Shown piece by piece: positions 2,083 to 17,993 of a DNA stretch of 18,067 nucleotides (the first letter of the stretch is position 1; each line of letters opens with the position of its first letter). This stretch comes from an uncultured Chloroflexaceae bacterium (GTDB lineage: Bacteria; Chloroflexota; Chloroflexia; Chloroflexales; Chloroflexaceae). The DNA is taken from contig CAKZQX010000568.1 in the NCBI GenBank assembly GCA_937141995.1, positions 1 to 18,067 on the forward strand, in the 5' to 3' direction. The notes under the pieces were generated by a model. That model saw only the letters and a program-made list of their open reading frames with translations. It was not told the origin of the DNA and ran no database searches. The position numbers were made by a program, and so were the translations under genes.

Positions 2083-5000
2083 CTACCGCGCAACAACTGG
2101 TAAATAGATCCTGCTAACAACCGGCTCACCACGCACAAAAGCCTGACTGATCGTATCAGTGACCTCGTCATAAACATTGGGATTAAACTCCGACGTAACC
2201 CGAACCGTGATCCGGTTAATGTCGGATATATCCGCATCTGCCGGTATTTGCACCCGCACATCGATTGGGAAGGGGCCGCCGCGCCGCAGCGTCGGTATTC
2301 TGGTCGGTTCGACCGTAATCTCCCAGTCGAGATCCTGGGTGGTTGTCACCGTAAAGCTGTCAAACCCATTTCCAATATTCACCAGTGTATGCTGGAACAG
2401 AATTTCTTCTCCCGGTATCAGCACGGCCCGATCATTCGGTGAGAAATCCACTCCAGCTACCTGAAGCACCGTTGTTCGATCAAACACCTCGGCTTTAATT
2501 TCCGGCTCCGTCACCGAGCGGGCAGTTACGGTGGTCGTGTCGCGCACGGTTGCGCCCGTCGGGGACTGCGCCGGCGCAGCCGACGGCACCAAAATTGTCA
2601 CCGAGATTGTCGTGCCGGCCGCCGGTTCGAGGAAAACACTTGCCGGCGACACAAAGGTCTCCCATCCCAGCGACGATAGCGCCGAGATGTCAAACGTTTC
2701 ACTCACAAACCCGGTATTGGTAATCTGATGCGTATAGTTCACCAGTTTACCCGGCAGTTGGGAACTGGCCCGATCCGGGACTAACTCCAGATCAATCGGT
2801 GGCCCGATCCGCAATCGGGCGGTCGCCAGCGCGTCCACCGGATCACCACCGTCGAGCGTCTCAGAGGAGCGCGCGCGTAGCGTAAACTCGCCAACTTCGC
2901 CATCCGGGGTTTCCGCAGGCGCTTGCAGCACCAGGGTCACGGTGGTGGTCTGACCGGGCGTAAAGTCGATCAACTCGGTTGGTGACAGCAAGACGATCCA
3001 GTCAGTTGGCCCGGTGGTTGTCGTCACAGAATAGGACTGGGTAATACTCCCACTGTTCATCAAGGTAAAGGTAAACGTGACGGGTTCGGTTGCAGGACCG
3101 GCGCGGGTCAGCGACGGTGGCGTCAGCATCACTCCCGGCACTGGGGCGATGGTGGTCTCAACCGACGCACTCTGCTGCTCACCCGGTTCAGAAGAGGTAG
3201 CCGTCAGGGTAGTTGTGTCAACTGTGCCGGCAACAATGCCAGGCGGTATATCGAGTTCAACCTGGATCTGCCGCTGTTGTTGCGGCGGTATTTCGATCTC
3301 CTCAGCGGGAAGAGAACGCACCGGCCACACCTGGGATGAGTTGAGCGTCAGACCAATAGTATCAGTAAAATTACCATTATTTTCTAACGTAACCGTATAA
3401 GTGTAGACAATGTTGGGTGGCTGCTCAGTTGCCGCAAGCCCGTCAACGGTCAGCGCGAGCGCGGCCACCTTGTTGACATTGAACGTATCTACTACCTCAG
3501 CCACCGCCGCATTGCTGTCGGTAGCGGTTGCACGTAACGTGATGGTATAACTCCCGGCCAGTGCATTTGCCGGCGGTGTCACCTGCACATCAACCGTTGT
3601 ACCGGCACCTGGGGCCAGATCACCCGTTGATACCGCTGACGGAGTAATCGTCCATCCTGCCGGCGGATTAACGATCTCCAGATTGAAGCTACCGGTTGTA
3701 TTGCCGACATTGGTGATAGTATGGGTAAATGTTACCATATTACCGGGATCGTTACTCTGTGCCTGCGCCGGGCTGATCCGTGGTACGGCCGCGTTAACCA
3801 CGGTCGTATTATTAATGACAGTGGCATTAACACTGCTATCAATCTGCGAACTGGCGGTGACACTGGTTGCGTAGACTGGTGGACTGGCACTTATCCCTTC
3901 CGGCGCGGTCAGGAGCAGCGTAACCACCCGACTCTCACCCTGCGCCAGCGTAATGGTCGCGCCGGGCTGGAGACTGCTGCTCCACGCCGACGACGGAGGA
4001 GTAACGGTAATGTCGAAGGTATCGGTGCCATTACCTTCATTGGTAAGCAGGTACTGGTAGCGTAGCTCCTGCCCCGGACCCGCCGATTGATTTTGCGGGT
4101 AGGTGGTAGTATCCGCCGTAAATGTGAGTTTTGGATCGGGCAGAACAGTGGTCGTATCGCGCGCAGTAGCGGTACCGCCGGTAGCGGATACCGTGAGGGT
4201 CGCCGGCACCTGTACCCCGGCAGCCGCGCCGGCCGGTACATTTACGGTGACAACCACCGCCTGTGAGCTACCGGGAGCCAGACTGCTAACAGACGGCGGT
4301 GAGACACTGCCACTCCACCCGGACGGCAACCCGCTCACAGACAGGGTAAAGTTGCCGGCTTCGTTCCCCACATTCTTCAGCGTATGTTTGTATGTTACCT
4401 GCGTGCCGGGTTTCCCGGAGCCACTTGCCGTTGTGGGTGTCAACTCGGGCACCGGCTCATTCTGGACAATCGGCGTGGTCTGCTGAACCTCGGCACGTTT
4501 CGCAGTATCACCCTGTGATGTCGCCGTCACACGCGTCACCAGCGGTGACTGGGTGATATTAGCAGGGATGGTTACGGTGACATTTACCGTGATTTCTTCA
4601 CCAGCAGGCAGTGTTACTGATTGAGCCGGTGAGAAACTAAAGTCAACGTCAGTTACCCCAGATGTTAAAACCGAACCTTCCAGTCTAAAGGTATCGATAC
4701 CATTGCCGGTATTCTTGAGGGTATGCTGGTAGGTGATCGAACCGGGTGAAGAAGTCTGTGTACCAGTCTGATCAGGTGTAAATGTCACCCCGAATACTGG
4801 CGAACAGGCATTGGTATACGGCCCAAAGCGATTACTGAAATTCGAAGTATTCCCGGAACTATCGGTAACGGTGAAGAGCAGATAGGGCTTACAGCCGGTT
4901 ATATCAATATTGCTAAAACTGCCGGTTGTTTCAAATGAAGTGACATAGAAGCGGCCTTCGTCACGTTCCCCATCCAGATTCCCAAACACCTCAACGGTAC

Positions 5001-6765
5001 ACCCGGAACTACAACCGGAGACACTACCACTCAGACGCGGCGGTGATCCGGCCGTAACGGAGATGTTGCTCATATTGGCCGTTTTTTCCTGATTGCCACC
5101 AGTGACTAACTGGATACCAAAAACATTGGCGTCATCACCACCATTGCCGGTCGTGGTTGTTTTTGTGACACGGTTACGAATGGCATCATTCCGAATCCGC
5201 ACACCATCACTCGTATTGTTGGCAACATGGTTATTTTCAACAAGATTATTATCCGTTCCCGTTTCAGCAATATAAATACCCGCGCCACCATTATAGCTAA
5301 CAGTGTTGCCATCGCCGGCTCCCGTGCCACCAACGGTATTGCTCGCCGCCCCATTACGGATAGAGATCCCATGGTGCACATTCCCGGCATCCTTTATTCC
5401 AATGCGATTGCCAACAATTTTGTTACCAGTGACCTGTTTGCCCCCACTAATGTTCGTACAATCATTGTTAAGCTGTACACCCTCAACATCATTCCCACCA
5501 ATGAGGTTGCCCGGACCGACCGTTACATTCGTTGCACCACACTCCAGTAAGACACCGATATGGTTCGGTAGTACGGTTGTCTTATTCGGAGCCAAGCCGA
5601 TAACATTATTTTTGATGGTAATCGGCCCGACACCCGCCAGACCCTCACGATTATCAACGATAATACCATTACCGGTAACAGTAAAGATATCGCCTTGATC
5701 GAGGTTGCCGGAGATCGTATTATTCTCGATAGTGACAGCCCGTGCGCGATACACCGAAACACCACCATCGGCATTCCGAATGCTGGCTGTTCCTGCCTTA
5801 TTAGTACCAATCAGATTCCCGGTGACAACATTCTCCGTGATCCATGTACCCGGATTGGCGATTAACTCACCACTGATTGTAACACCATAGTCAGCCGGTC
5901 CAATTGATGAACCTTTACCATTGCCACTGATAACATTACCGGGGCCAATTGTATTATTATTCGCATTATCAGTAATCCGTACACCATCTTCAGTATTTTC
6001 CAGCGCGGCTGTACCTGTCCGATTAAGGCCGATAATGTTATCTCTAATAATATTGCCATGAACCTCGGCTGTATCGCCCGACATCCCCGGTGTTCTCCCA
6101 AGGTATACACCATACCCAACATTCCCGGAAATGACACTATGCCGCACGATGTTGTTATCCGCGCCGGCTATAATCGCAATACCGCCACTTTCATTTGGTA
6201 GACTTGCGGTTCCATTATAGTTGGTACCCACATAACAGTATTCAACTCTGTTACCGGCAGGTGGTATGCTTACATTATTACCACTAATAACAATTCCCAC
6301 ACCAGTCGGGTCATCCACAAATCCCCCAAAATCAATGTTATTAATAATCAAGCCTCGTATCAGATTATTGGAAGACTTGATAAACAGGCCACGAGCACTC
6401 TGCGTCGGAAGCCTGGTACCATTCAGTTCGATCTTGGGTGTCACCCCATCAGCAGCCGTACCATCAATCGTAATATTATCGCTGGTCAGCGCCGGTAATG
6501 CCGAATTAAGCTCAATACTCCAGTAGGCCCCTGTAGCCTGATATCCCGGATCTGATGTGGGTATGCTGAACGTGATTATCTTATTACCCGTGGCAGCATT
6601 CGCCTGGGTAATGGCCCAGCGTAGAGTGTTCTCCGTCACATCATCGGCGGTTTTTTTGACTTCAAACGTGGATGTCTGGGCCTGAGCAGGACGCACCGGC
6701 ATGGCACTTACCACCAGCAATGCCAGGATGGTAAGAAGAATGATTTTGTGGATAGACGACTGCAT
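2083..6765 (-). CDS. Giant exported beta-helix protein with eight NEW3/CARDB-like repeats, 1560 aa
   Basis: This is a predicted secreted, surface or matrix protein with no recognised enzyme motif. Layout by residue: Sec signal peptide 1-29 (hydrophobic [12 protein letters not shown], cleavage after AQA); an N-cap 32-75 resembling a CSLREA domain but with TLRWAI in place of the Cys-containing motif; right-handed parallel beta-helix about 95-560 with many copies of N-x-I-x-G-N-x-I and GNVISGN-x-x-x-GV-x-I coils; a small beta domain 565-655 with the pair C585/C589 ([12 protein letters not shown]); then eight beta-sandwich repeats of about 105 aa starting near 657, 773, 878, 995, 1101, 1210, 1325 and 1437. 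Each repeat opens with a [YF]-x-H-T-[LI]-x-N-x-G-N-like strand. The protein ends [10 protein letters not shown], with no LPXTG and no C-terminal membrane helix. GGGAGG lies 4 nt before the ATG. The gene follows its paralogue by 12 nt. The helix half is clearly AT-richer than the repeat half. Function is unknown; adhesion or sheath/matrix is an inference. Confidence 0.95.
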
Positions 6766-6777
6766 ACTGCCTCCCTG

Positions 6778-9700
6778 CTAACGCCGGATGATCGGCAACC
6801 ACAGGCGCGTGCCGGCGGTACTCAAAACGATATCGGTTCGGTCCTGGGCTGAGGCAATAATATTGCCGGTCCTGGCATCAAGCACCTGGATAGTAAAGGT
6901 ATCACTCTGCCCCGGTTCGGCCCGCTCAGGGATGGTGACTTCGACAGCGATGTTTATCACATTCTGCGGTGAGTCCTGCGCAAGTGTCACGCCATTCTGG
7001 CTATCCAGCGAAAGCCCTGGCGTGGTTGACACGAACCGGAACTCCGAACCAAGGCTGCTCGACCCGACCAGTTGAATATTCACCGGGCCACGGCTGATAT
7101 TCTCGATAACATGTTCAAATGTCACCGTCCGCCCCGCCGCGCCATCGGCAATCTGCCGCGCCGGGTAGAGCTGAACCGCCGCGGTTGTGGTGACAAGCGT
7201 CGTATCGGTGATCGTCTTGTTCTGGGTTGCGTCCTCTAAGACGTTGATATTAATATTCACTACAGCGGTTGCCCCGGCATTGGCAATCTCCGGCGGAGTG
7301 ACGGTCAGAACCGGCTGAACCGTCTCACCCGGTCCAACTTCATAGCCGGTTTCCGACAGAGTTGCCTGCCAATCCGGCGGGGGCGCAGTGGAGTTCAGTT
7401 CAAGCGTCGCGGTAATATTGCCATTGTTGGTGATAGCATGCGCGTAATCAATCGGTTTTCCTTCCTCAGTCTGCCCCGTGGAAGCCAGGGGCGTCACCGA
7501 CAGAACAATCTTACCGTCAGCGGAGAGAGTAGTTGTATCTACCACGCTATCACTCACATCCGGCTCCGAACGGCTGGAAACCGTGACGGTCAGCAGGTCG
7601 GTCAGGCCGGCGAGTACCCGCTCGTCCGGTCCGGCGGGCAGCGTCAGCGTTACCGTCACCGGCTGCTTCTCTCCGGGAGCGAGCGCAAACGGCGTGGCGG
7701 GATCAAGCACAACCTCGCCCGCGTTCGCGCCCCAACCCAGGCTGGACGCATAAGAGAGCACCAGATCGTTATAGCTTACCGTACCATTGTTGGTCACAGT
7801 ATGGGTATAGGTAATCACCTGAGTCGGGAAGGCTCCCGTAGTAACACGGGGCGGCTCGATCTGCACCGAACGAGTAACGGTAAACGCGGCAAACTCGGAC
7901 GTGTTACGCTCACCCGGTTGCGTCCAGTTGTCGGTTGCGGTCAGCGCAAACTTGGTGGTATTGGTGGGAATTTCCGTCAACTGGAAGGTGAAAGAGCCGT
8001 CGCTCGCGGGTGTCACCGCACCGAGCAACTCCTGGCCCTGAATATCCTTGACACTCGTGCCGGAACTTGCGCTGAAGATCTGCACGGTACAATCAATACA
8101 GGCGGCCGCATCGGGGACACCCGGAGAGATGGTACCGGTATAGACATAGCCGAATAACTGCCCATCCTGATTCAGGCCGAGGTTGAACGGCGGGTCAATA
8201 TCATGGTTGGGTATGCCGGGCACTCCTGCAATGGGCTGCCCCGTGGGGCCACGATCATCGCCGACAAGCTCGATCCCGGCGCGCACCGTATCGCTAACAA
8301 GTTCACCATTGTCCAGCATGCGGTTGTCCAGAATAGCAACACGCTTGGCTGTTCCATCCAGGATAACGGCGCTCAGGGTATTGGTATAGATGGTATTCCC
8401 GGCAACCAATGCCGGCACTGAATTGCCGGTAAAGATGATGCCGTTACCACCTGCATTTGCATCATTAATACCATTTTCGTTAATGATGTTGCCCTGAATG
8501 GTAGTACTGATCGCCCGGTCGGCGCGGATACCGTCGTAGGCATTCTCCACGATTGTATTGGAGATAATATCGGTACTGCTACCATTATCGAATAGTATCC
8601 CATTCACTGCATTACCGGCTATACTGCTGTAGCGAACAGTCGTTGTGACGGTACCGGTGAACTCAATACCATTACCGCCATTGTCGCTAACCACGAGTGG
8701 AGTTTCCACATCCTGCCCGTTGATTATTGTCTCCTGCGCATTGGCAATCGACACACCATTGCCGGCATTTTCCGTAATAGTGTTCTTGAGCAGCGTGGTA
8801 GAGATTACATCGCTGGTATTAGTTTGAATAGTGATCCCGTCACCGCCGTTGTAGGCAATGACATTACGTTCCTCATCGGTTGGGCCGCCAATCTGGGTTC
8901 CTGAGACATTGGTATTCAGAACGATACCATTGCCTGTGTTCGGAATCGGGTCTGCCCCAAACCTATCTGTTCCAATATAGTTACCACTGATAATGTTGCC
9001 ATTAGTATTAAAATCAATAAAAGGAGGGTCATTCGCGCCAATGATACGGATACCATCCCCGGCAATGCCTGATATGACGTTGCGTTCAGATGTGTTCCCT
9101 CCGACTCTATTATTGCTGGCCCCCTTGTCAATGAGTACACCAACCGTCTGATTAGTTCCTCCACTGGGCACTTGTCCATTCTGCCCTAGACCAATATAGT
9201 TGTTAACGACGATATTACCAGAAGCTTCCTCCGGGCCACTGATTTGAATTCCTGGTCCCACATTGCCAGCAATATAATTACGAGTGTAGATACTACTACC
9301 ACCAACGACATTGCCCCTAGTAGGCAATATATTCGCTCCGATGAGAATACCTCCACCACCATCAGTACCCGTACCATTTGGAATGACTTTCGTTGACGAA
9401 TTGTTCATTCCAATGCGGTTTCCATAAATTTCATTATTAGAGCTATCTGCAACAAATATCCCCCATCCCCCATTACCTGAGATAAGGTTACGTTCTGAAG
9501 GAACTGAACCAGCAGCATCAGTACCGATCACATTCTCATTGGCATTGGTAAACACATAGATGCCGTATCGCAGATTCGGCACGGCCTTGCTCCCAAAACG
9601 ATCAGTACCAATAGAGTTGCCCTTTATCAAATTACCAGAACCTTGAACGAGGATACCATCAAGGTTATTTCCAGAGATAATATTGGCTTCATCAGCCGCG

Positions 9701-10368
9701 CTACTATCTCCACCAATAATATTCCCTGTTGCGGAAGTTGTTATCCAGACACCAGGGCCCGTATTCGGAAAACTGGTATCACCCTTTTTGCCAATACCTA
9801 TATAGTTGCCCTGTACTGTATTATTGTTACCATTTATCTGAATACCAGCTATGCCCCCACGAAACCCCACAATACCTAATCCCTTGATTGTACAGTTATC
9901 ACCAATAATGGTAATACCCCCAGCAGTATTGACAGTCGAGCCATCAATAATTATCTCAGGACCAACCTGATTCGGCTGGCCGCCAATATATTGAGCCTGA
10001 GTATTTCCATCAATGGTAATATTGTTTGACAGAATTGCCGGAAAAGCGAGTGCGGCTATCGGGGTGATTGTCCAGGTCTCTGCGGAGGAATCGCTTCCAT
10101 CATAGCCAGGATCGGTCTCAGCGGGGATGTTGAATGCGATAGTAACCGGGTTTTCATCTGACGCTTTGGTATTTGCCGCTTTGATTGCCTGGCGTAGCGA
10201 ACAAGGAGCTTCACAGTTGGGGTTGCTTACCGTCAAATCTTCGGTAGTTGTGACAATAAGGGTCTCGGCAGCATGTACCGGAGTCGGCTGCCACCCGACG
10301 CCCAGCGACGTAACGATAAGCATGGTGATCAGAAGTATATGCGACCAGCGCTGGTATGTCGGGGACAT
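6778..10368 (-). CDS. Giant exported CSLREA/beta-helix protein with three NEW3-like repeats, 1196 aa
   Basis: This is a paralogue of the next gene downstream and the first gene of the operon. By residue: Sec signal peptide 1-34 (HILLITMLIVTSLGVGW, cleavage near VHA-AET); CSLREA-type N-cap at 36-90 with NCEAPCSLRQAIKAANT (C52, C56); right-handed parallel beta-helix about 112-690 with the repeat theme IGTDRFG...N..GI.I....N.IGG.....RNVISGN; a small two-cysteine beta domain 725-830 (C757/C760, CIDCTVQIF); three beta-sandwich repeats near 834-950, 953-1063 and 1064-1182; and the tail TRLWLPIIRR. The ATG at 10368 is chosen over a longer frame opening at 10527 because it has AAGGAGT 5 nt upstream and begins a clean signal peptide, whereas the 53 extra codons are Tyr/Arg/Cys-rich and cover the promoter region. 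It probably acts outside the cell; no catalytic residues can be assigned. Helix coils at 9000-9900 are AT-rich relative to flanking genes. Confidence 0.94.
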   Translation of the reverse strand: MSPTYQRWSHILLITMLIVTSLGVGWQPTPVHAAETLIVTTTEDLTVSNPNCEAPCSLRQAIKAANTKASDENPVTIAFNIPAETDPGYDGSDSSAETWTITPIAALAFPAILSNNITIDGNTQAQYIGGQPNQVGPEIIIDGSTVNTAGGITIIGDNCTIKGLGIVGFRGGIAGIQINGNNNTVQGNYIGIGKKGDTSFPNTGPGVWITTSATGNIIGGDSSAADEANIISGNNLDGILVQGSGNLIKGNSIGTDRFGSKAVPNLRYGIYVFTNANENVIGTDAAGSVPSERNLISGNGGWGIFVADSSNNEIYGNRIGMNNSSTKVIPNGTGTDGGGGILIGANILPTRGNVVGGSSIYTRNYIAGNVGPGIQISGPEEASGNIVVNNYIGLGQNGQVPSGGTNQTVGVLIDKGASNNRVGGNTSERNVISGIAGDGIRIIGANDPPFIDFNTNGNIISGNYIGTDRFGADPIPNTGNGIVLNTNVSGTQIGGPTDEERNVIAYNGGDGITIQTNTSDVISTTLLKNTITENAGNGVSIANAQETIINGQDVETPLVVSDNGGNGIEFTGTVTTTVRYSSIAGNAVNGILFDNGSSTDIISNTIVENAYDGIRADRAISTTIQGNIINENGINDANAGGNGIIFTGNSVPALVAGNTIYTNTLSAVILDGTAKRVAILDNRMLDNGELVSDTVRAGIELVGDDRGPTGQPIAGVPGIPNHDIDPPFNLGLNQDGQLFGYVYTGTISPGVPDAAACIDCTVQIFSASSGTSVKDIQGQELLGAVTPASDGSFTFQLTEIPTNTTKFALTATDNWTQPGERNTSEFAAFTVTRSVQIEPPRVTTGAFPTQVITYTHTVTNNGTVSYNDLVLSYASSLGWGANAGEVVLDPATPFALAPGEKQPVTVTLTLPAGPDERVLAGLTDLLTVTVSSRSEPDVSDSVVDTTTLSADGKIVLSVTPLASTGQTEEGKPIDYAHAITNNGNITATLELNSTAPPPDWQATLSETGYEVGPGETVQPVLTVTPPEIANAGATAVVNININVLEDATQNKTITDTTLVTTTAAVQLYPARQIADGAAGRTVTFEHVIENISRGPVNIQLVGSSSLGSEFRFVSTTPGLSLDSQNGVTLAQDSPQNVINIAVEVTIPERAEPGQSDTFTIQVLDARTGNIIASAQDRTDIVLSTAGTRLWLPIIRR

Positions 10369-10373
10369 GGTGT

Positions 10374-10380
10374 ACTCCTT
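10374..10380 (-). promoter_or_regulatory. Ribosome binding site that sets the start of the 1196-aa secreted protein
   Basis: On the minus strand AAGGAGT lies 5 nt before the ATG at 10368. This strong Shine-Dalgarno site supports the shorter start and removes a spurious 53-residue N-terminal extension that would hide the signal peptide. Confidence 0.8.
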
Positions 10381-10461
10381 GTACTCTATCGCGCAACGTG
10401 CGGGACGGTAGAACACAATCCGGTAAAAGGTTGCAAAAGCGTAAACCCTATTTCCCGCCCT

Positions 10462-10488
10462 ATTGTAGCACGGAACGGCTTGCAGCAA
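10462..10488 (-). promoter_or_regulatory. Candidate promoter for the secreted-protein/aroQ operon
   Basis: Read on the minus strand, TACAAT (10462-10467) is a good -10. The best -35 is TTGCTG (15-bp spacing) or TTTGCT (16-bp spacing), both somewhat short. It lies about 95 bp before the start codon, in the 287-bp divergent gap shared with dnaK. No other strong -10 was seen on that strand in the gap. Confidence 0.33.
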
Positions 10489-10588
10489 ACTAGGAAAGAG
10501 GTACTGAAATCGGCCTGAGTCTAACATAAATCTAACGCGAATCTTGCGCGCTATTAGTGAAAGGACGGTAAACTGGTTGCAGTGACCG

Positions 10589-10655: not shown

Positions 10656-12611
10656 ATGGCTAAGATTGTAGGAATTGACTTAGGAACAACAAACTCGGTT
10701 GTCGCCGTGATGGAAGCGGGCGACCCGGCCGTTATTCCCAATGCTGAAGGTAATCGTACCACCCCTTCGGTGGTTGCGTTCGCCAAGAATGGCGAGCGAC
10801 TGGTGGGGCAGACGGCCAAGCGCCAGGCGACGATTAACCCGGATAATACGATTTTCTCAGTGAAGCGCTTTATTGGGCGCGACTATGATGATACCGATGT
10901 TGAGCGCGATATGGTACCGTTTGAGGTTTCTGCGGGACCGCGCGGCGATGTTCGGATCAAGGTTCCCCAGACCAGCAAGGACTACGCGCCGCAGGAAATT
11001 AGCGCGATGACCCTGCAGAAGCTCAAGGCCGATGCCGAGGCGTACCTGGGTGAGCCGGTGACGCAGGCTGTAATTACGGTTCCGGCCTATTTTAACGACA
11101 GCCAGCGCCAGGCCACCAAGGACGCCGGCAAGATCGCCGGGTTGGAAGTGCTGCGGATTATCAACGAGCCGACGGCGGCGGCGCTCTCCTACGGTATGGA
11201 CAAGAAGAAGGATGAGACGATCCTGGTCTTTGACCTGGGTGGTGGTACCTTTGACGTGAGTATCCTGGAAGTCGGCGATGGCGTGGTCGAGGTGCGGTCC
11301 ACCAGTGGTGACACGCACCTGGGTGGTGACGACTATGATGCGCGCATTGTTGACTGGATCGTCGAGGAGTTCCGCAAGGATCAGGGGATTGACCTGAGCA
11401 AGGATCGCCAGGCGCTCCAGCGGCTGAAGGAGGCGGCCGAGAAGGCCAAGATGGAGCTGTCGAGCATGATGGAGACAGAGATCAACCTGCCCTTCATCAC
11501 CGCCGACGCTACCGGCCCGAAGCATCTGACGATGCGCTTGAGCCGGTCCAAGTTTGAGCAGTTGACCAGCGCGCTGACCGAGCGGCTGCGGGGTCCGGTG
11601 AACCAGGCGCTCAAGGACTCCGGCATGAAACCCAACGAGATCCACGAAGTTGTGCTGGTCGGCGGGAGCACCCGTATGCCGGTGGTCCAGGAATTGGTGC
11701 GCAAGATGATCGGCAAGGAGCCGAACAAGAGCGTCAACCCGGATGAGGTGGTCGCGGTTGGCGCGGCAATTCAGGCCGGCGTGCTCGGTGGCGATGTCAA
11801 GGGCGTTGTGCTGCTGGATGTGACGCCGCTGTCGCTGGGTGTGGAGACCCTGGGTAGCGTGATGACCAAGCTGATCGAGCGCAACACGACCATCCCGACG
11901 CAGAAGAGCGAGATCTTCTCCACCGCAGCCGATGGGCAGACCGCGGTAGACATCCATGTGCTCCAGGGTGAGCGCGAGATGGCCGGGGATAACATGACGC
12001 TGGGCCGGTTCCGCCTGGAAGGTATTCCGCCCGCACCGCGCGGTATCCCGCAGATCGAGGTGGCATTCGACATTGACGCCAACGGCATCCTGAATGTCTC
12101 GGCGAAGGATAAGGCGACCGGCAAGGAGCAGCGCATTACCATTACGGCCAGCACCAACCTGAACCAGAACGAGGTTGAGCGCATGGTCAACGAAGCGCAG
12201 GCCCACGCCGAGGAAGATAAGCGCCGCCGCGCTATGGTCGAGATGAAGAACCAGGCCGACAGCCTGACCTACCAGAGCGAACGCACGCTGAACGAACTGG
12301 GCGACAAGGTAGACGCCATTGAGCGTGAGCGCATTGAAGGTCTGATTAAGGATCTGCGTGATGCAATTACCCAGGAGGACGAGGAGCGCATCCAGCGGTT
12401 GACGACAGAACTGCAGCAGGAGATGTACCAGGTTTCGCAGAAGGCGTATGGTGAAGGCCAGCCCCAAGGGCAGCCGGGCCAGCCGGGGCAGTCCGGTGGC
12501 GGTGATGAAGGCGTCGTCGAAGGCGAGTATACTGTCGAGCAACGGGTTTCACAACGGCATAATCCGCGACAACGACCAGCAATTGTTTGCTGGTCGTTGT
12601 CTTTGTACTGA
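10656..12611 (+). CDS. dnaK: Chaperone protein DnaK (Hsp70), apparently extended at the C-terminus
   Basis: DnaK is the ATP-driven Hsp70 chaperone that binds exposed hydrophobic peptides in the cytoplasm together with DnaJ and GrpE, neither of which is in this window. It starts [14 protein letters not shown]. The nucleotide-binding domain is about 1-380 (phosphate loop [27 protein letters not shown] near 193-202, LVGGSTRMP). The linker VVLLDVTPL is near 384-392, followed by the beta substrate-binding domain to about 505 and a helical lid to about 600. It has the longer loop ([21 protein letters not shown]) typical of Gram-negative and cyanobacterial rather than Firmicutes DnaK. AGGAGG lies 10 nt before the ATG. 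The odd part is the end: a Gly/Gln-rich linker and VVEGEYTVE look like the natural terminus (628 aa), but codon 629 is CAA (12540-12542). The frame then continues 23 codons through a strong terminator hairpin to TGA. Confidence 0.98.
12568..12606 (+). terminator. Rho-independent-type terminator of dnaK, lying inside the annotated reading frame
   Basis: GACAACGACCAGCAA (12568-12582) and TTGCTGGTCGTTGTC (12587-12601) form a perfect 15-bp stem with a TTGT tetraloop, followed by a short, interrupted T-rich stretch (TTTGT). The hairpin lies before the TGA at 12609-12611, within the last 23 codons of dnaK. The stem is long and perfect, but the U-tract is weak. Confidence 0.78.
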
Positions 12612-12712
12612 CAGCTTAAGTTGATATGAGTTACGGGGTGCGTATTCAAACCAGACGTTTGAGCCGAGGAACGCTCACTTCGCCTGCGGCAGCGTGGAAG
12701 GAACCATCGTTG

Positions 12713-12874
12713 TGTAATGGACATTGAAAAAATCCGGATATAGAGGGGACCGGATGGCATTCACCACCGTACGGCCCGGACGTTGGAGTCCCGGCTTCAG
12801 CCGGTGAACGGCCGTCAACCGGCTGAAGCCGGGACTCCTGGAGCAATGTCCGGATTACTGTTCAAACTTCATCA
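12713..12874. repeat. Foldback (MITE-like) element, copy A
   Basis: The core is a perfect 21-bp inverted repeat: GGAGTCCCGGCTTCAGCCGG plus T (12785-12805) against its complement (12818-12838), with a 12-nt loop holding the palindrome ACGGCCGT. The outer ends are also inverted: the left end reads TGTAATGGACATTGAAAAAA then TCCGGATAT, and the right end, read on the minus strand, reads TGATGAAGTTTGAACAGTAA then TCCGGACAT. The whole element is about 162 bp and has no reading frame of its own. It matches copies at 14788 and 16184. I could not define a target-site duplication. Confidence 0.72.
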
Positions 12875-13055
12875 AAAATGAGTATCACGCTGCCGCAGGC
12901 GGTTTATGTTTCATCTGGTGAAACGCTCAGTTTTATCGTCCACCGCATAACGCATGCCATCTCGTAGCTTTCATGGTCTAAACCATCACCACGCCAGTCG
13001 CGTTATTTGACAATTCGCTCTACCGGGCGTAAAGTAGGCGCGTGTTGTTTGTGTG

Positions 13056-13084
13056 CAGAATAATCCCTTAGACAAGGTTATAAT
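13056..13084 (+). promoter_or_regulatory. Candidate promoter of the AlkP/sulfatase-like gene (perfect -10, poor -35)
   Basis: TATAAT lies at 13079-13084, but the bases 16-18 bp upstream (around CAGAAT) do not resemble TTGACA, so the promoter may be weak or activator-dependent. Transcription from about 13091 would give an approximately 87-nt leader containing the AGCCGGC/GCCGGCT hairpin. Confidence 0.35.
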
Positions 13085-13177
13085 TTACAGGGTGAACGCA
13101 GCAGCCGGCGGCGTACCTACTCAACATGGCCGGCTACCCGGTTGGTGTGAACCTTGTGCTACAAAGAAACGTTATTT

Positions 13178-14719
13178 ATGTCCAGGCACCCCGATATTGT
13201 GTTGCTGGTGCTCGATACTCAACGCGCCGACCGGCTCTCCTGTTACGGACATACGTCCGCCACATCGCCATACCTGGATGCTCTCGCAGCCGAGGCGACC
13301 TTTTTCCGCCACGCAATCGCTCCGGCGCAGTGGACTATTCCTGCGCACGCCTCGATGTTTACCGGGGTCTACCCCTCCCGTCACCATACGCACCAGTCCG
13401 ACGCGGTGCTACCCGCAACGCTGACCACCCTCGCTGAACGCTTGCGCACCGGGGGCTTTTTTACGGCCGGTTTTTGTAATAACCCGCTGGTCGGCGTGGT
13501 CAACAACGGGCTGCGGCGCGGCTTCTACAGCTTTTTGAACTATAGCGGACTAATGACCTCCCGTCCCAACCAGGCCGGGACACATTCCAATCTGTTCGAC
13601 AAGTATCGCCAGTTGTTCAAGCGCTGCCTGGCGGCGCTGCTCAACCGCGCGCAAGATGCCTTTGCCCGCTCGGATCTGCTGCTGGCGCTCTCCTTTACCC
13701 CCATGGTGGTACCGCTCTGGCAGACGGCACTCAGCTTTAAGGGCAATACCAGCCGGTCGCTCCACGATGCGGCGCGGCTGCTGGTCGAACGCCGGGGGGT
13801 AGAGCGGGACCAGTCGGTCTTCTGCTTTATCAACCTGATGGGCGCACATATGCCCTACCGCCCGCCCCGACGCTTTGTGGCGCAGTTTGCGCCGCATGTG
13901 TTGCGCGATAAGACGGCCCGTACCTACTTGCGTCGGTTCAACAGTGATATCTATGGCTGGCTGGCGCCCCTGCACAGCGCGATTAACGCCGAGCAGAAGG
14001 CGACGCTCGACGGCATGTATGATGCCGAGGTTGCCAACCAGGATGTGCATGTGGGAGCCTTTATCGACAAGTTGCGCAGCAGTGGCCGCCTGGAGCATAC
14101 CCTGCTGATCATCTGCGCCGACCATGGCGATCATCTGGGCGAGAAGCAGATGATGGGGCATGGCTTCTCACTTTACAATGAACTGGTGCATGTGCCATTG
14201 ATCATTCGTGATCCGGATGACGATTTCCCGCGTGGCACGGTTGTGGAGCGGTTTGTCTCGACGCGCCGCCTGTTCAACACGGTGCTGACGGCAGCGGGCA
14301 TGGCCGACGCACCGGAACAGACGCTGACCCTGGCGCACAGCGCCGGCAATGATCCGGACGCCGGGGGGGTATTTGCCGAGGCGCTGCCGCCCCAGAATGC
14401 GCTCCGGATGATTCGGCGGCGGCAGCCGGATCTGATTCAGGCGCGTGACTGTGACCAGGTTCGCCGCGCCGTCTGTAATGACCGGCACAAACTTATCCAG
14501 ACTGGGGAGCATCGCCTGGAACTCTACAGTATGGAGGAAGATCCGGGCGAGACGCTTAATCTGGAGGCGATTCTGCCGGAGCGGGTGGAGGCATTGCAGC
14601 AGCAGTTGCAGATGTTCGTCGCGCAGACACCGACCACGCCGCCGCCGACCACCCGGACAGTCGCCCATGATGACCCGGAAGTTCAACGCCGCCTGCGCGA
14701 TCTGGGCTATCTGGAGTAG
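13178..14719 (+). CDS. Alkaline-phosphatase-superfamily hydrolase of the sulfatase fold, threonine nucleophile, 513 aa
   Basis: It has the sulfatase-type fold. It opens HPDIVLLVLDTQRADRLSCYG (metal-binding D13), then WTIPAHASMFTGVYPSRH, and later MGAHMPY (H224), MYDAEVANQD and ADHGDHLGEKQMMGHGFSLYNELVHVPLII (D315, H316, H328). It ends LELYSMEEDPGETLNL...LRDLGYLE, a typical sulfatase-family C-terminus. At the position where type I sulfatases carry the formylglycine Cys/Ser of C/S-x-P-x-R, this protein has T53 in T-I-P-A-H. A phosphodiesterase or phosphotransferase using Thr is therefore more likely than a sulfatase. There is no signal peptide or membrane helix, so it is probably cytoplasmic or peripheral. 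The ATG at 13178 is preferred over a TTG at 13154 because the protein then begins at the conserved first strand; neither has a strong ribosome site. The substrate is unknown. Confidence 0.9.
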   Translation: MSRHPDIVLLVLDTQRADRLSCYGHTSATSPYLDALAAEATFFRHAIAPAQWTIPAHASMFTGVYPSRHHTHQSDAVLPATLTTLAERLRTGGFFTAGFCNNPLVGVVNNGLRRGFYSFLNYSGLMTSRPNQAGTHSNLFDKYRQLFKRCLAALLNRAQDAFARSDLLLALSFTPMVVPLWQTALSFKGNTSRSLHDAARLLVERRGVERDQSVFCFINLMGAHMPYRPPRRFVAQFAPHVLRDKTARTYLRRFNSDIYGWLAPLHSAINAEQKATLDGMYDAEVANQDVHVGAFIDKLRSSGRLEHTLLIICADHGDHLGEKQMMGHGFSLYNELVHVPLIIRDPDDDFPRGTVVERFVSTRRLFNTVLTAAGMADAPEQTLTLAHSAGNDPDAGGVFAEALPPQNALRMIRRRQPDLIQARDCDQVRRAVCNDRHKLIQTGEHRLELYSMEEDPGETLNLEAILPERVEALQQQLQMFVAQTPTTPPPTTRTVAHDDPEVQRRLRDLGYLE

Positions 14720-14787
14720 CTTGTGCCGGTTGAGGCACCGTTCAACATTGACGATGCGTACATGACACTTACTTCGTAGCGCCGCCG
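14720..14787 (+). other. Short 3' flank of the AlkP/sulfatase-like gene with a weak hairpin
   Basis: GTGCC (14723-14727) and GGCAC (14734-14738) can form a 5-bp stem with a 6-nt loop directly after the stop codon. There is no T-tract, so termination here is doubtful. The rest of the 366-bp gap up to lgt is taken by foldback copy B and a possible promoter. Confidence 0.25.
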
Positions 14788-14950
14788 TATGACGGTTGAA
14801 TGTTACATCCGGACACTGTGCCGGGAGTCCCGGCTTCAGCCGGTGTGCGGCCGGCAGTCGGCTGAAGCCGGGACTCCTGGAAGAGGCTGCAATGGGTCAT
14901 AACCGCGCGGCCGCATACCATATCCGGGTAATTTTTCCCAAACTTCATCA
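14788..14950. repeat. Foldback (MITE-like) element, copy B
   Basis: A 19-bp perfect stem (14824-14842 with 14859-14877) uses the same arm as copy A, followed by two G-T wobble pairs and a GC-rich loop containing GCGGCCGGC. The left end is TATGACGGTTGAATGTTACA then TCCGGACA. The right end is CATATCCGGGTAATTTTTCC then CAAACTTCATCA, the last 11 bases being identical to the end of copy A. Length is about 163 bp, close to copy A. It lies in the gap between the sulfatase-like gene and lgt. Confidence 0.72.
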
Positions 14951-15020
14951 GGCGGTGGTGTCGGCCTGGCACCGCCTGAACTGAAGGCGGCACAAACCGC
15001 ACGCAAACAGTTATGTGCGA

Positions 15021-15049
15021 TTAAACCCGGTCTGAATGACCGATAGATT
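15021..15049 (+). promoter_or_regulatory. Weak candidate promoter of lgt with a palindrome in the spacer
   Basis: TTAAAC (15021-15026) and TAGATT (15044-15049) are 17 bp apart. The spacer contains the 5-bp inverted repeat CGGTC-TGAAT-GACCG (15028-15042), which could be an operator or be coincidental. Each hexamer matches consensus only partly. Confidence 0.24.
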
Positions 15050-15085
15050 TCCATATCGCCACTGAAAAGCATAACACGAAAAGAC

Positions 15086-16054
15086 ATGTATCCACCAGTT
15101 GATCCAATCATTGTCGAGTTTGGCCCGCTGGCGTTGCGCTGGTACGGCCTGATCATTATGACCGCCATCCTGGCGGGGACATGGATTGCCGGCCGCTATG
15201 TTGCCCGGCATGGCGAAGATCCGAATAATGTCTGGGATATGCTGTTCTGGGTATTGATTGCGGGGCTGATTGGCGCGCGGCTCTACTATGTCTTTATCCA
15301 GTCGCCGCGCGGCCCGGAAGGCTTTGGGCGCTATCTCGAGAATCCGATCAGCATTATTGACCTGCGGCAGGGCGGACTGCATATCTTTGGCGGCTTTCTC
15401 CTGGGGGGGCTGGCAATGTGGTTATTTGCCCGCGCCCGCAACCTGCGCCTGCCGATCTATCTTGATGGAATTGCGCTGGCATTACCGCTGGGGCAGGCGA
15501 TTGGACGCTGGGCCAATTTTATCAACCAGGAACTCTATGGCCCGCCAACCACGCTGCCCTGGGGATTGCGAATCGATCCACAACATCGTATTCCGCCCTA
15601 CAACAACCTGGCCGAATACCCGGAGAGTACCCGGTTTCATCCGCTCTTCCTGTATGAGATGATCTGGAACTTGATCGGCTTCGGGCTGCTCTTCTGGATT
15701 GCGCGGCGCTTTCAGTCGCGGTTGCGCGCCGGCGATATTGCGCTGCTCTATCTGATCTGGTATCCGTTCGGACGCTTCTTTATCGAGTTTCTCCGGACGG
15801 ACTCCTGGTTTTTTCCCGGCACGAACTTCAACATGGTCCACATCCTGTCGGCGATTGCCGTGATCGGCTCGGCCATTCTGCTCTACCGGCGGCATCGGGA
15901 ACCGGAAGCGCAGGAAGTGCAGCGCGCAGAACCGGAAGCGCAGCGCGCAGCGCGCAGAACCGGAAACGCAGAACCGGGAACTGCGAGCACAGAACCGGAG
16001 CAAGGAGTCGAGGACGAGCAACCAGGAACCAGCGAGAAACCGGCTAATCCATAA
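15086..16054 (+). CDS. lgt: Phosphatidylglycerol--prolipoprotein diacylglyceryl transferase (Lgt)
   Basis: This integral membrane enzyme transfers diacylglycerol from phosphatidylglycerol to the lipobox cysteine of prolipoproteins, the first step of lipoprotein maturation. The 322-aa sequence shows about seven hydrophobic segments, the early block LRWYGLIIMTAILAG, GARLYYVF, GGLHIFGG (residues 96-103), the family signature GRWANFINQELYG (140-152, with R141, N144 and E149), HPLFLYE (185-191) and FLRTDS with R237 matching the second essential arginine of the family. The cytoplasmic C-terminus from residue 271 on is an unusual Glu/Pro/Ala/Gln/Arg-rich tail of about 50 residues, partly encoded by tandem repeats and not part of the enzyme core. 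The ribosome site before the ATG (ACGAAAAG) is weak. The gene lies between two AlkP-superfamily enzymes but is separated from both by more than 300 bp, so a tight operon is not indicated. Confidence 0.97.
   Translation: MYPPVDPIIVEFGPLALRWYGLIIMTAILAGTWIAGRYVARHGEDPNNVWDMLFWVLIAGLIGARLYYVFIQSPRGPEGFGRYLENPISIIDLRQGGLHIFGGFLLGGLAMWLFARARNLRLPIYLDGIALALPLGQAIGRWANFINQELYGPPTTLPWGLRIDPQHRIPPYNNLAEYPESTRFHPLFLYEMIWNLIGFGLLFWIARRFQSRLRAGDIALLYLIWYPFGRFFIEFLRTDSWFFPGTNFNMVHILSAIAVIGSAILLYRRHREPEAQEVQRAEPEAQRAARRTGNAEPGTASTEPEQGVEDEQPGTSEKPANP
15899..15985 (+). repeat. In-frame tandem repeat in the 3' end of lgt
   Basis: The block GAACCGGAAGCGCAG occurs at 15899-15913 and 15929-15943, then with one change (GAACCGGAAACGCAG) at 15957-15971, followed by degenerate GAACCGGGAA and further GAACCGG words. 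Spacing between copies is 30 then 28 bp, with GCGC-rich spacers. It encodes the EPEAQ / AEPEAQRAAR / NAEPG part of the cytoplasmic tail. It is not expected in Lgt and looks like replication-slippage growth at the gene end. Confidence 0.7.
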
Positions 16055-16183
16055 CGCATTTTTGCCACAGCGATCACCAAGAACATGGAGGGGTGCGGTC
16101 AGCGGCACATCACAGCAATGCGCCCCGGTAAGCGCTCTGCTGCATGCACTGCGGCTCTCATCGAATCCGTATCGAGGTCAGGG

Positions 16184-16334
16184 TGATAAACGTTGAACAT
16201 TAAATCCGGACATCGCTGAACCGGAGTCCCGGCTTCAGCCGGTCCCGGATGGCATATCCGGGTTGTTTTCTCAACGTTTATAAGCCGGGACGCCAGTAAA
16301 TTCCGTATCCGAACTATTGTCTCAACGTTCATAA
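16184..16334. repeat. Foldback (MITE-like) element, copy C, rearranged with a duplicated right end
   Basis: The left end TGATAAACGTTGAACATTAA (16184-16203) is followed by ATCCGGACAT, and the left arm GGAGTCCCGGCTTCAGCCGG (16223-16242) is intact. Instead of the matching right arm, the sequence goes to CATATCCGGG and a right end TCAACGTTTATAA (16271-16283). A degenerate right arm (AAGCCGGGACGCC, 16282-16294) then follows, and a second right end CTCAACGTTCATAA (16321-16334). The two right ends are 51 bp apart. The second runs directly into the 7-bp array. The stretch 16055-16183 just after lgt holds nothing I can name. Confidence 0.62.
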
Positions 16335-16391
16335 CCGTTAACCCATCATCGTTAACTCGTAACCCGTAACCGTTAACCCATAACCTTTAAT
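16329..16391 (+). repeat. Heptamer tandem array touching a start codon
   Basis: Nine consecutive 7-bp units fit a loose consensus CSKTAAC (typical units CGTTAAC, CCGTAAC and CCATAAC), the first overlapping the end of foldback copy C. One base separates the array from the ATG at 16393, so no Shine-Dalgarno sequence is present for the next gene. The array resembles in style the short tandemly repeated heptamers known from cyanobacteria, but no relationship is claimed. Confidence 0.75.
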
Positions 16392-16392
16392 T

Positions 16393-17790
16393 ATGTCACC
16401 TCGTCTACTCATTATTGGTCTGGACTGCGCCGAACCGTCGCTGCTGTTTGAGCAGTGGCGTGACGATCTTCCCAACCTGTCGCGGTTGATGCGGCAGGGT
16501 AGTTTTGGTCGGCTGGAAAGCTGCATACCGGCGATTACCGTGCCCGCCTGGAGTTGCATGTTCAGCGGGCGTGATCCCGGCGAGTTGGGCATCTATGGCT
16601 TTCGCAACCGCGCCGACCGGGGCTATCAGCAGATGGCTATCGCCGACAGCCGGGCCGTGCAAGTGCCGCGCCTCTGGAATATCCTGGGGGATGCCGGATG
16701 GCGCGTGGCCGTCATCGGTGTGCCGGGCAGCTTTCCACCGCAGCCGGTCAACGGGGTACTAATCTCCGGCTTCCTGGCTCCCAACACCCGCGCCGAATAC
16801 ACCTACCCACCCGAACTTGCTGCGGATATTGCCGGGTGGGTGGGGAATTATCTGCTGGATGTGCCCAACTTTCGCTCCGAGGACAAAGGGCGTATTCTCC
16901 GCGACATTTATACGCTGTGTGACCAGCGCTTCACCCTGGCCGAACGGTTGCTTGAGTGTGACGATCCCGATCTGCTGCTGCTGGTGGAGATGGGTGTGGA
17001 TCGCATTCATCATGCGCTCTGGAAGCATATGGACCCGCAGCATCCGCTCTTTGTGCGGGATTCACCCTTTGCAACCGCTATTCATGATTACTACCGTCAT
17101 GTTGACCGGCGCATCGGTACACTACTGGCCCGCTGCGCCGATCAGACCGCCGTGCTGGTCGTTTCGGACCATGGCGCGCGCCCGCTGCTGGGCGGCATCT
17201 GCCTGAATGAGTGGCTACTGGCGGAGGGCTACCTGACCCTGCACGAGCCGCTGACCATTGGGGACGGCCGGCCACAACTGCTTCAACCACACCATGTGGA
17301 CTGGAGCCGTACGCGGGCCTGGGGCGCGGGCGGCTACTACGGGCGGGTTTTTCTGAACGTCAAGGGGCGCGAGCCGGAGGGCGTGATTTCCCCCGCCGCG
17401 TATGCGCAGGAGCGGGAAACGCTGGCAGCGAAGCTTCAGGCGCTCCCCGGCCCGGATGGGCAACCGCTGGGGACGCGGGCTTTCACACCGCAGCAACTCT
17501 ATCGGCGGGTGCGCGGGGTTGCGCCCGACCTGCTGGTCTACTTTGGCGATCTGGCCTGGCGCGCGGTGGGAACGCTGGGGCACGGGACGATCTACACCCG
17601 CGAGAATGATACCGGCCCCGATGATGCCAACCATGCGCAGCATGGCCTGTTTATCTTTGCCGACCCACAGCGCCCCGGCAATGGAACATTGGTTGAGGGT
17701 GCGCAGATCTACGATATCCTGCCAACGCTGCTGGCACGCTTTGGTATCGCGGCCCCGAACGGGCTACGCGGGCGGGTGTTTTTACGTTAG
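16393..17790 (+). CDS. AlkP-superfamily phosphohydrolase/phosphomutase (type I phosphodiesterase/NPP-like, COG3379 type), 465 aa
   Basis: This protein belongs to the alkaline phosphatase superfamily. It begins RLLIIGLDCAEPSLL with metal ligand D11. The nucleophile is T49 in AITVPAWSCMFSGRDPGELGIYGF, the Thr arrangement of NPP-type enzymes. VEMGVDRIHHALW (D203, H207), VVSDHGARP (D259, H260) and a late HAQHGLF (H417) complete a two-metal site. WRVAVIGVPGSFPP and LISGFLAP are typical of this predicted phosphohydrolase/phosphomutase group. There is no signal peptide or transmembrane helix. Family members act on phosphomono- or diesters, but the substrate here is unknown. The ATG at 16393 puts the first conserved strand at the N-terminus, as in the family, but there is no ribosome site: a 7-bp tandem array fills the leader. 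The stop codon lies inside an 8-bp tandem array. It is the second Thr-type AlkP enzyme within 5 kb. Confidence 0.93.
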   Translation: MSPRLLIIGLDCAEPSLLFEQWRDDLPNLSRLMRQGSFGRLESCIPAITVPAWSCMFSGRDPGELGIYGFRNRADRGYQQMAIADSRAVQVPRLWNILGDAGWRVAVIGVPGSFPPQPVNGVLISGFLAPNTRAEYTYPPELAADIAGWVGNYLLDVPNFRSEDKGRILRDIYTLCDQRFTLAERLLECDDPDLLLLVEMGVDRIHHALWKHMDPQHPLFVRDSPFATAIHDYYRHVDRRIGTLLARCADQTAVLVVSDHGARPLLGGICLNEWLLAEGYLTLHEPLTIGDGRPQLLQPHHVDWSRTRAWGAGGYYGRVFLNVKGREPEGVISPAAYAQERETLAAKLQALPGPDGQPLGTRAFTPQQLYRRVRGVAPDLLVYFGDLAWRAVGTLGHGTIYTRENDTGPDDANHAQHGLFIFADPQRPGNGTLVEGAQIYDILPTLLARFGIAAPNGLRGRVFLR

Positions 17791-17847
17791 CACGTTGGAA
17801 CGTTGGGACGTTAGCACGTTGGGACGTTAGCACGTTGGGACGTTGGC
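17784..17847 (+). repeat. Octamer tandem array overlapping the stop codon
   Basis: Eight uninterrupted 8-bp units fit ACGTTRGN, every unit starting ACGTT. The first unit contains the TAG stop (17788-17790) of the preceding gene, so the array starts in the last sense codon. Units alternate between ACGTTGGG/A and ACGTTAGC. From 17848 on, the sequence leaves the pattern. No hairpin terminator is seen after this gene. Confidence 0.85.
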
Positions 17848-17993
17848 AAATTCCGTGGTACTCATTGGCATACTGATGCAGCAGGAATGAAACCGCCTGG
17901 TTCCGTTCAAGTTGAATGATTGCACCGGCGCGTTGGCGCGCAGCCAGTGCCGCTCCAACTTTTACCATAAGACAGCACGATGCATTTGTTCCC

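Follow-up and report, generated by a model that had tools for sequence, protein, structure and literature searches.

MITE-like foldback elements that carry REP palindromes and probably prefer REP hairpin loops in the gaps downstream of dnaK in an uncultured Chloroflexaceae bacterium

What kind of element occupies the gaps downstream of dnaK in an uncultured Chloroflexaceae bacterium, and how could several copies of it have come to lie there? The window, i.e., the whole stretch of DNA that was analyzed, is the complete contig CAKZQX010000568.1 (G000:C568; 18,067 nucleotides) of assembly GCA_937141995.1 (G000; 5.42 Mb in 1122 contigs, 86% complete). A first-pass annotation had placed one foldback copy in every gap after dnaK, and one copy is indeed found in each gap among dnaK, a sulfatase gene, lgt, and a phosphodiesterase-like gene. 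It had proposed either a non-autonomous miniature inverted-repeat transposable element (MITE) or an element like repetitive extragenic palindromes (REPs) and bacterial interspersed mosaic elements (BIMEs). Both proposals fit at once, for the element concerned, which we call F2, is bounded by terminal inverted repeats (TIRs) and holds an inverted REP pair. With a probability of roughly 0.7, we consider the three copies (A, B, and C) to be F2, a MITE-like element with a pair of REP-I palindromes inside, which would prefer the TTCA loops of REP hairpins and enter them between TT and CA.

The central arm of the copies, GGAGTCCCGGCTTCAGCCG, was found at 394 sites in the host assembly (up to two mismatches) as opposed to none for the reversed pattern, so the window copies are far from being the only three. 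Within the window there were five arm matches (up to three mismatches), compared with 0.01 expected from shuffles. The 20-mer, with up to one mismatch, was present in 9 of the 41 family genomes searched: 300 sites in the assembly itself, 153 in a genome of the same genus (G001), 158 in one of another genus (G013), and 1 to 13 in each of the other six. The reversed control of this search gave one match, in G031, and 16 genomes from other families of the order had no site for the 20-mer. A degenerate form occurred in 11 of the 41 genomes, with a maximum of 950 sites in G013. The exact 20-mer was also retrieved from at least 93 stretches among GTDB contigs (L097-L189). Among the matches listed, at least 88 belonged by title to Planctomycetes, Verrucomicrobia, Lentisphaerae, or Kiritimatiellae, at least three to Chloroflexales, and at least two to Proteobacteria, and an inverted arm followed within 110 nt in 65 of 106 exact copies. 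Copy number, presence in relatives, and the inverted partner of exact copies elsewhere together identify the core as a REP, which we named REP-I. Its pairs in the host assembly are mostly spaced 33-34 or 64-65 nt from start to start, and it is extragenic: 23 of 148 cores fell inside crude open reading frames (ORFs), though ORFs cover 80% of the 527 kb in question. An identical 20-mer in metagenome-assembled genomes of Chloroflexales and of Planctomycetes/Verrucomicrobia makes the origin and transfer of REP-I testable. The three bases 5' of the exact 20-mer were most commonly TTC (25), GTT (21), and TTT (12) in the 106 copies among the GTDB matches listed.

REP-I is carried by two distinct elements. 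F2 is diverse, about 160 bp long, with TIR ATGAACGTTGAA. As expected of a MITE with conserved TIRs, its TIR is sharply delimited both among 54 left and among 49 right ends, two sets that overlap. A search with a 14-mer of the F2 end, as the first-pass annotation had advised for its terminal repeat, gave 115 matches versus one for the reversed control, and at least one REP-I arm lay inside 32 of 33 F2 TIR pairs. F1 is uniform, about 173 bp long, with TIR GAGACTGTCTGAAA; its 20-nt end pattern was found at 108 sites (control, 0), and all 26 F1 shells held at least one REP-I arm. Identical 3-bp flanks, all of them TNA, were observed at 19 of 27 F1 copies, compared with 5.9 expected, so F1 combines the TIRs and the target duplication of a MITE. 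Within the IS5 family of insertion sequences (ISs), such duplications are characteristic of the IS1031 group, and the ends of F1 are IS5/IS1031-like. F1 resembles IS5-family (IS1031-like) MITEs in its TIR type and 3-bp duplications, and differs from them in that its interior is a REP-I pair. The sequence next to the core is slightly alike in F1 and F2 (1 of 300 shuffles as good).

How often REP-I resides in these containers depends on how the contigs were chosen. The main sample comprised 753 kb of the assembly in 155 stretches, many of them chosen for a match to core, F1, or F2 patterns. In it, 239 REP-I copies were assigned by ends within 150 bp to F1 (66), F2 (138), one end of each (6), or neither (29), a count that includes contigs picked by F1/F2 ends or by likeness to copy B. 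A fairer estimate comes from 40 stretches picked through the REP-I core only: 88 of 108 copies had an F1 or F2 end no more than 150 bp away (F2, 69; F1, 17; both, 2; neither, 20), versus 343 of 5000 random positions. Forty contigs taken regardless of hits held only eight REP-I copies (five in F2, one in F1, and two in neither, at contig edges). The F2 end pattern had 40 sites in its own genome and none in the 40 other family genomes, including the same-genus one. Since these ends were found in one of the 41 genomes and REP-I is shared with relatives, F2 appears to be a late carrier of a REP that is older than itself. In G013 and G024, which belong to another genus, F1-like shells enclose a related REP-like core; the mini-elements seen there at L307:19198-19297, L308, and L070 measure about 100 bp and have F1-like TIRs around a GGAGTGCCGGCTTYAGCCGG core. 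In the same-genus genome G001, 10 exact REP-I copies form a dense one-way array over about 530 bp (L304:1189-1722), with neither F1 nor F2 ends.

The sequence that F2 appears to enter can be read at copy B. Its F2 (14789-14948; left end 14789-14800, right end reaching 14948) is preceded by the 5' half of another REP, CGTAGCGCCGCC plus two loop bases (14775-14788, plus strand), and followed by the 3' half, a spacer, and an inverted second REP of the same kind at about 14972-14993 (together 14949-14993, plus strand). This REP, named REP-II (GTAGTGCCGCCTTCAGGCGG), has a GTAG tag; REP-I carries GGAG. It forms inverted pairs and is rare in its whole form, with seven sites (up to three mismatches) in the 753 kb. 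When the flanks of copy B are joined (14775-14993 minus F2), a REP-II pair is restored, with F2 in the loop of the first REP-II. REP-II pairs at L230, L095, and L222 could be aligned with the joined flanks, as could L079, where the second REP is itself broken. None of 500 shuffles was as good in any of these alignments, and scores were 71-78 versus 25-29 for the control join. Judging from these alignments, REP-II pairs elsewhere serve as a within-genome empty site for copy B.

Many other F2 ends have comparable surroundings. Among 129 distinct ends, 66 abut REP arms, with 33 next to a 5' arm (for which up to three mismatches in 11 bases were allowed) and 33 next to a 3' arm. At random positions, the background was 0.43% for 5' arms (about 0.6 expected) and 5.5% for 3' arms (about 7 expected). 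The two bases beside the TIR were TT in 17, TG in 12, and others in four cases after 5' arms, and TG in 25, TT in two, and others in six cases after 3' arms; this skew (Fisher test on TT/TG, p 5e-5) has the direction predicted for insertion at TT^CA. Arms on both sides were present in 12 of 50 F2 TIR pairs, namely nine with a 5' and a 3' arm, two with two 3' arms, and one with two 5' arms. In all nine 5'-plus-3' pairs both arms were of one REP type (REP-II in seven, REP-I in two), so that part of the F2 copies (9 of 50 pairs) are flanked by both halves of a single REP.

These observations suggest a mechanism in which F2 would insert between TT and CA in the TTCA loop of REP-II and REP-I hairpins. 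Since REP-I rides in both F2 and F1, each insertion would add new target hairpins, and the elements would pile up as palindromes stacked within palindromes. F2 and F1 would be moved by a transposase acting in trans, the recognized feature would be the hairpin (as a cruciform or in single-stranded DNA), and most copies would have been made by transposition rather than recombination. A rule of this kind (i.e., enter a loop, bring a new loop) would account for the growth of composite palindromes, and REPs serving as both cargo and target of a MITE would have a second route of amplification besides REP-associated tyrosine transposases (RAYTs).

Several observations weigh against this interpretation. 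Neither copy A nor copy C is bordered by the two halves of a REP, 63 of the 129 F2 ends adjoin neither REP arm, and 19 of the 50 F2 pairs have no arm on either side (some of these being chance pairs). After a 5' arm, 12 ends have TG in place of the predicted TT. We devised the arm rule after viewing the same F2 ends, and nested F2 copies are not independent of one another. No target-site duplication was found for F2: flanks were identical over 2-3 nt in 1 of 19 elements and over 4-10 nt in 0 of 19. Past the first five bases, flank complementarity was not above that of shuffles (341 of 5000). The assembly contains seven DDE_Tnp_1 and two DUF4096 matches (one of the latter shares its gene with a DDE match), and none of the loci examined in this fragmented, incomplete assembly has F1 or F2 TIRs on both sides. 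A transposase with matching ends, which the first-pass annotation had looked toward, was not encountered at these loci, and the genes were dropped as partners; single weak F1-like matches occur in L318, L322, and L389.

Two broader target preferences were also considered. Complementarity between F2 flanks exceeded shuffles as a whole (0 of 2000 with 14 elements, 15 of 5000 with 19 elements, and weakly in another run). Its restriction to the first five bases leaves a general preference of F2 for palindromes unsupported, and entry into any palindrome was dropped as an explanation. A preference for shells of F3, a further palindrome described below, was likewise discarded because only 1 of 40 F2 and 0 of 26 F1 copies lay between matching F3 arms.

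The individual window copies depart from one another in structure. Copy A holds an F2 at 12717-12872 with TIR ATGGACATTGAA ... TTCAAACTTCAT (ends 12717-12728 and 12861-12872) and REP-I arms at 12785-12804 (plus strand) and 12819-12838 (minus strand). The REP-I arms of copy B are at 14824-14843 (plus strand) and, with one mismatch, at 14858-14877 (minus strand). Copies A and B have F2 ends and a short core spacing (34 nt) that is typical of F1. Copy C comprises a short F2 (16186-16281; left end 16186-16197, right end reaching 16281) with a single REP-I arm (16223-16242, plus strand), and a second F2 remnant (16284-16332) with a fragment of a REP-I arm (GCCGGGACGCC, 16284-16294) and an F2 end at 16322-16332. 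This layout identifies copy C as a broken nest composed of two F2 pieces. The imperfect terminal inverted repeats described earlier are thus real, with F2 ends mapped in all three copies, and the shared central inverted arm stands for A and B; in copy C it is reduced to one arm plus a fragment, and the idea of three equivalent units fails there.

Could these palindromes have been assembled and spread by other means? Ordinary REP/BIME families (including REP doublets forming hairpins, REPINs) could have been moved by RAYTs, with the F1 and F2 ends merely traveling with the REP pair, which we regard as unlikely. Such families would accord with the GTAG tag and inverted pairs of REP-II, with the REP-I copies that lack F1 and F2 ends in G001, and with the Y1 transposases present in 25 of the 41 family genomes. 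Next to one of these genes (L201 in G044) lie three other GTAG hairpins (GTAGCCCGGCCCTTCAGGGCCGGG, one with a changed loop), possibly a RAYT-REP locus of a relative. REP-II-like matches were also obtained at the Y1 locus L191 under a looser pattern (up to four mismatches), and from both loci it follows that RAYT-REP pairs may exist in the family. The first-pass annotation had advised looking for such a transposase, but PF01797 (Y1_Tnp) had no match in the host's own 86%-complete assembly and REP-I (up to three mismatches) was found at 0 of 15 Y1 loci of relatives (to 1.5 kb where contigs allow), and on these two grounds a RAYT was rejected as the mover. Four Y1 proteins of relatives that were scanned all passed the IS200/IS605 cut-off and none the RAYT cut-off, and neither the TNA duplications of F1 nor the TIR edge of F2 outside the REP agrees with movement of this kind. 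A separate single open frame in G043 (L204:1633-2610, minus strand) resembles, by eye, an IS5-type transposase followed by Y1-transposase-like sequence. Slightly less improbable, in our judgment, but still not likely, are composites that arose where palindromes with short matches in common recombined or switched templates. The lack of a target-site duplication at F2 would be natural in this case, as would the tandem and truncated chains of L080, L083, and copy C, and the centers of F3 suggest that palindromes are rewritten in this genome. Exchange of this type is harder to reconcile with the REP-II pair restored at copy B, and with the finding that in 9 of the 12 doubly flanked F2 pairs a 5' arm on one side is matched by a 3' arm of the same REP type on the other.

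The copies might also be regulatory RNA hairpins selected for the genes beside them (i.e., 3'-end stabilizers, terminators, or attenuators), which we consider very improbable. RNA copies would form strong hairpins, in line with the long RNA hairpins foreseen by the first-pass annotation: folding z-scores, each computed with some flank, were -8.8 for A, -5.9 for B, and -3.1 for C. The mostly extragenic position of the cores fits this proposal too, and six terminator-like sites were found in the scanned stretch versus 3.2 expected, three of them in A and C (12838-12853, 12889-12903, and 16244-16262). Against it, REP-I has hundreds of sites elsewhere in the genome, two syntenic gaps in G001 lack the core, and no element position is conserved in that one relative compared. 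Moreover, dnaK has a terminator-like stem of its own in the consensus scan (12568-12601, plus strand), separate from copy A, and Rfam gave no match in the window.

Known systems resemble the proposed F2 in part. GTAG repeats are reported in Chloroflexi and in the Planctomycetes-Verrucomicrobia-Chlamydiae (PVC) superphylum in passages of Di Nocera 2013 (PMC3733652). As described in parts of that paper and of Nunvar 2010 (PMC2817692), REPs, BIMEs, and REPINs of the GTAG type resemble REP-I in being extragenic hairpins of about 20 bp that are rich in GC, arranged in inverted pairs, and present in hundreds of copies. Unlike the GTAG REPs that occur with RAYTs in these accounts, REP-I carries GGAG, most of its sampled copies lie in TIR-bounded elements, and its assembly has no RAYT match; the string 'ggag' does not occur in the main text of PMC3733652 (figures aside). 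Sections of Tobes and Pareja 2006 (PMC1525189) describe ISs that use REP palindromes as specific insertion targets, as F2 would (IS1397, ISKpn1, IS621, ISPpu9/10, ISPa11, ISRm22, and ISPsy8). Unlike the ISs portrayed there, F2 is short and non-coding and itself carries REPs, and could therefore insert into other elements like itself. For Pseudomonas putida and P. fluorescens, passages of PMC3733652 describe TIRs made up of degenerate GTAG-1 units linked to unrelated stem-loops; as here, hundreds of copies combine a REP with another palindrome. Those TIRs flank two tyrosine transposase genes according to the same passages, while in the present case the junction falls in the REP loop and no such gene was found. 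Parts of all these kinds are known, but their nesting together with self-targeting looks unusual. Literature searches of openly licensed full texts brought up neither a MITE that carries REPs as well as entering them nor a text containing the letters of the core. Somewhat short of an even chance, we tentatively entertain the fuller proposition of a self-targeting MITE F2 for which its own REP-I is one preferred target, REPs carried as MITE cargo without a detectable RAYT, and F3 palindromes copied from arm to arm.

F3 is a palindrome of about 104 bp with arms CGCCTCCGGCAGGGCGGAA ... GTACCATGCTGCCGCAGGCGA. In the main sample, the left arm occurred 123 times and the right arm 89 times; together they made 70 pairs, of which 52 were 101-106 bp long (arm pairs at L078:5887-5990, L324:625-730, and L236:3785-3888 are examples). 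Across 160 kb of contigs chosen regardless of hits, a covariance model of F3 gave 38 matches, which represent about 20 places counted on both strands; nine of these places belong to the model's own sequences. Strong matches were also found at five places in stretches of G001, with quite different centers. In 43 F3 copies of 103-106 bp, selected through their arms without using the centers, the 21 center pairs were standard base pairs in 96.7% of 897 cells, compared with 74.8% after shuffling. Both sides had changed in 156 of these cells, one side in 11, and 30 were unpaired; the covariation score was 0.516 versus 0.139 for shuffled and at most 0.082 for slid partners. Intermediates with G-U pairs are nearly absent, which favors a DNA palindrome that would be kept nearly perfect (e.g., by arm-to-arm copying) over selection on RNA. 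The middle of 14 of 54 intact-length copies fell inside a crude ORF, and Rfam gave no match in five F3-bearing stretches. F3 would offer a natural many-copy system for studying the upkeep of near-perfect palindromes. Around copy A, an F3-type shell is formed by CGCCTGCGGCAGCGTG (12681-12696, plus strand) and CACGCTGCCGCAGGCG (12886-12901, minus strand), a perfect 16-bp inverted repeat whose two arms were paired as one 222-bp F3; arms like them are found again around F3 copies.

The genes around the copies, all on the plus strand, are dnaK (10656-12611), the sulfatase gene (13154-14719), lgt (15086-16054), and the phosphodiesterase-like gene (16393-17790). The last three are syntenic in G001, with 75-77% protein identity. 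In that genome, 54 nt separate the aligned end of lgt from that of the phosphodiesterase gene, so the gap is nearly absent and copy C is missing. The sulfatase-lgt gap of G001 is about as long as in the window and lacks the core (up to three mismatches). It contains another inverted repeat whose arm resembles F3 (up to four mismatches), with no F3-model match at an E-value of 0.01. The dnaK-sulfatase gap allows no comparison because dnaK is not beside the sulfatase gene there, and G001 is too distant for exact junctions to be read. The copies, which had been held to explain the long gaps, do so in part and, judging by the gaps of G001, not by themselves.

Many contigs of the host assembly end in F1, F2, or REP repeats, and the window is one of them: an F1 on the plus strand is cut by the contig end (18016-18067), its last six bases being the first six of REP-I. 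Other repeats were observed around the phosphodiesterase-like gene, with simple TTAACCC-like repeats 5' of it (16332-16390) and tandem 8-bp repeats (ACGTTGGG/ACGTTAGC) 3' of it (17784-17855). On the minus strand, the window also contains two very long ORFs (2083-6765, 1560 amino acids; 6778-10527, 1249 amino acids) with many short degenerate internal repeats.

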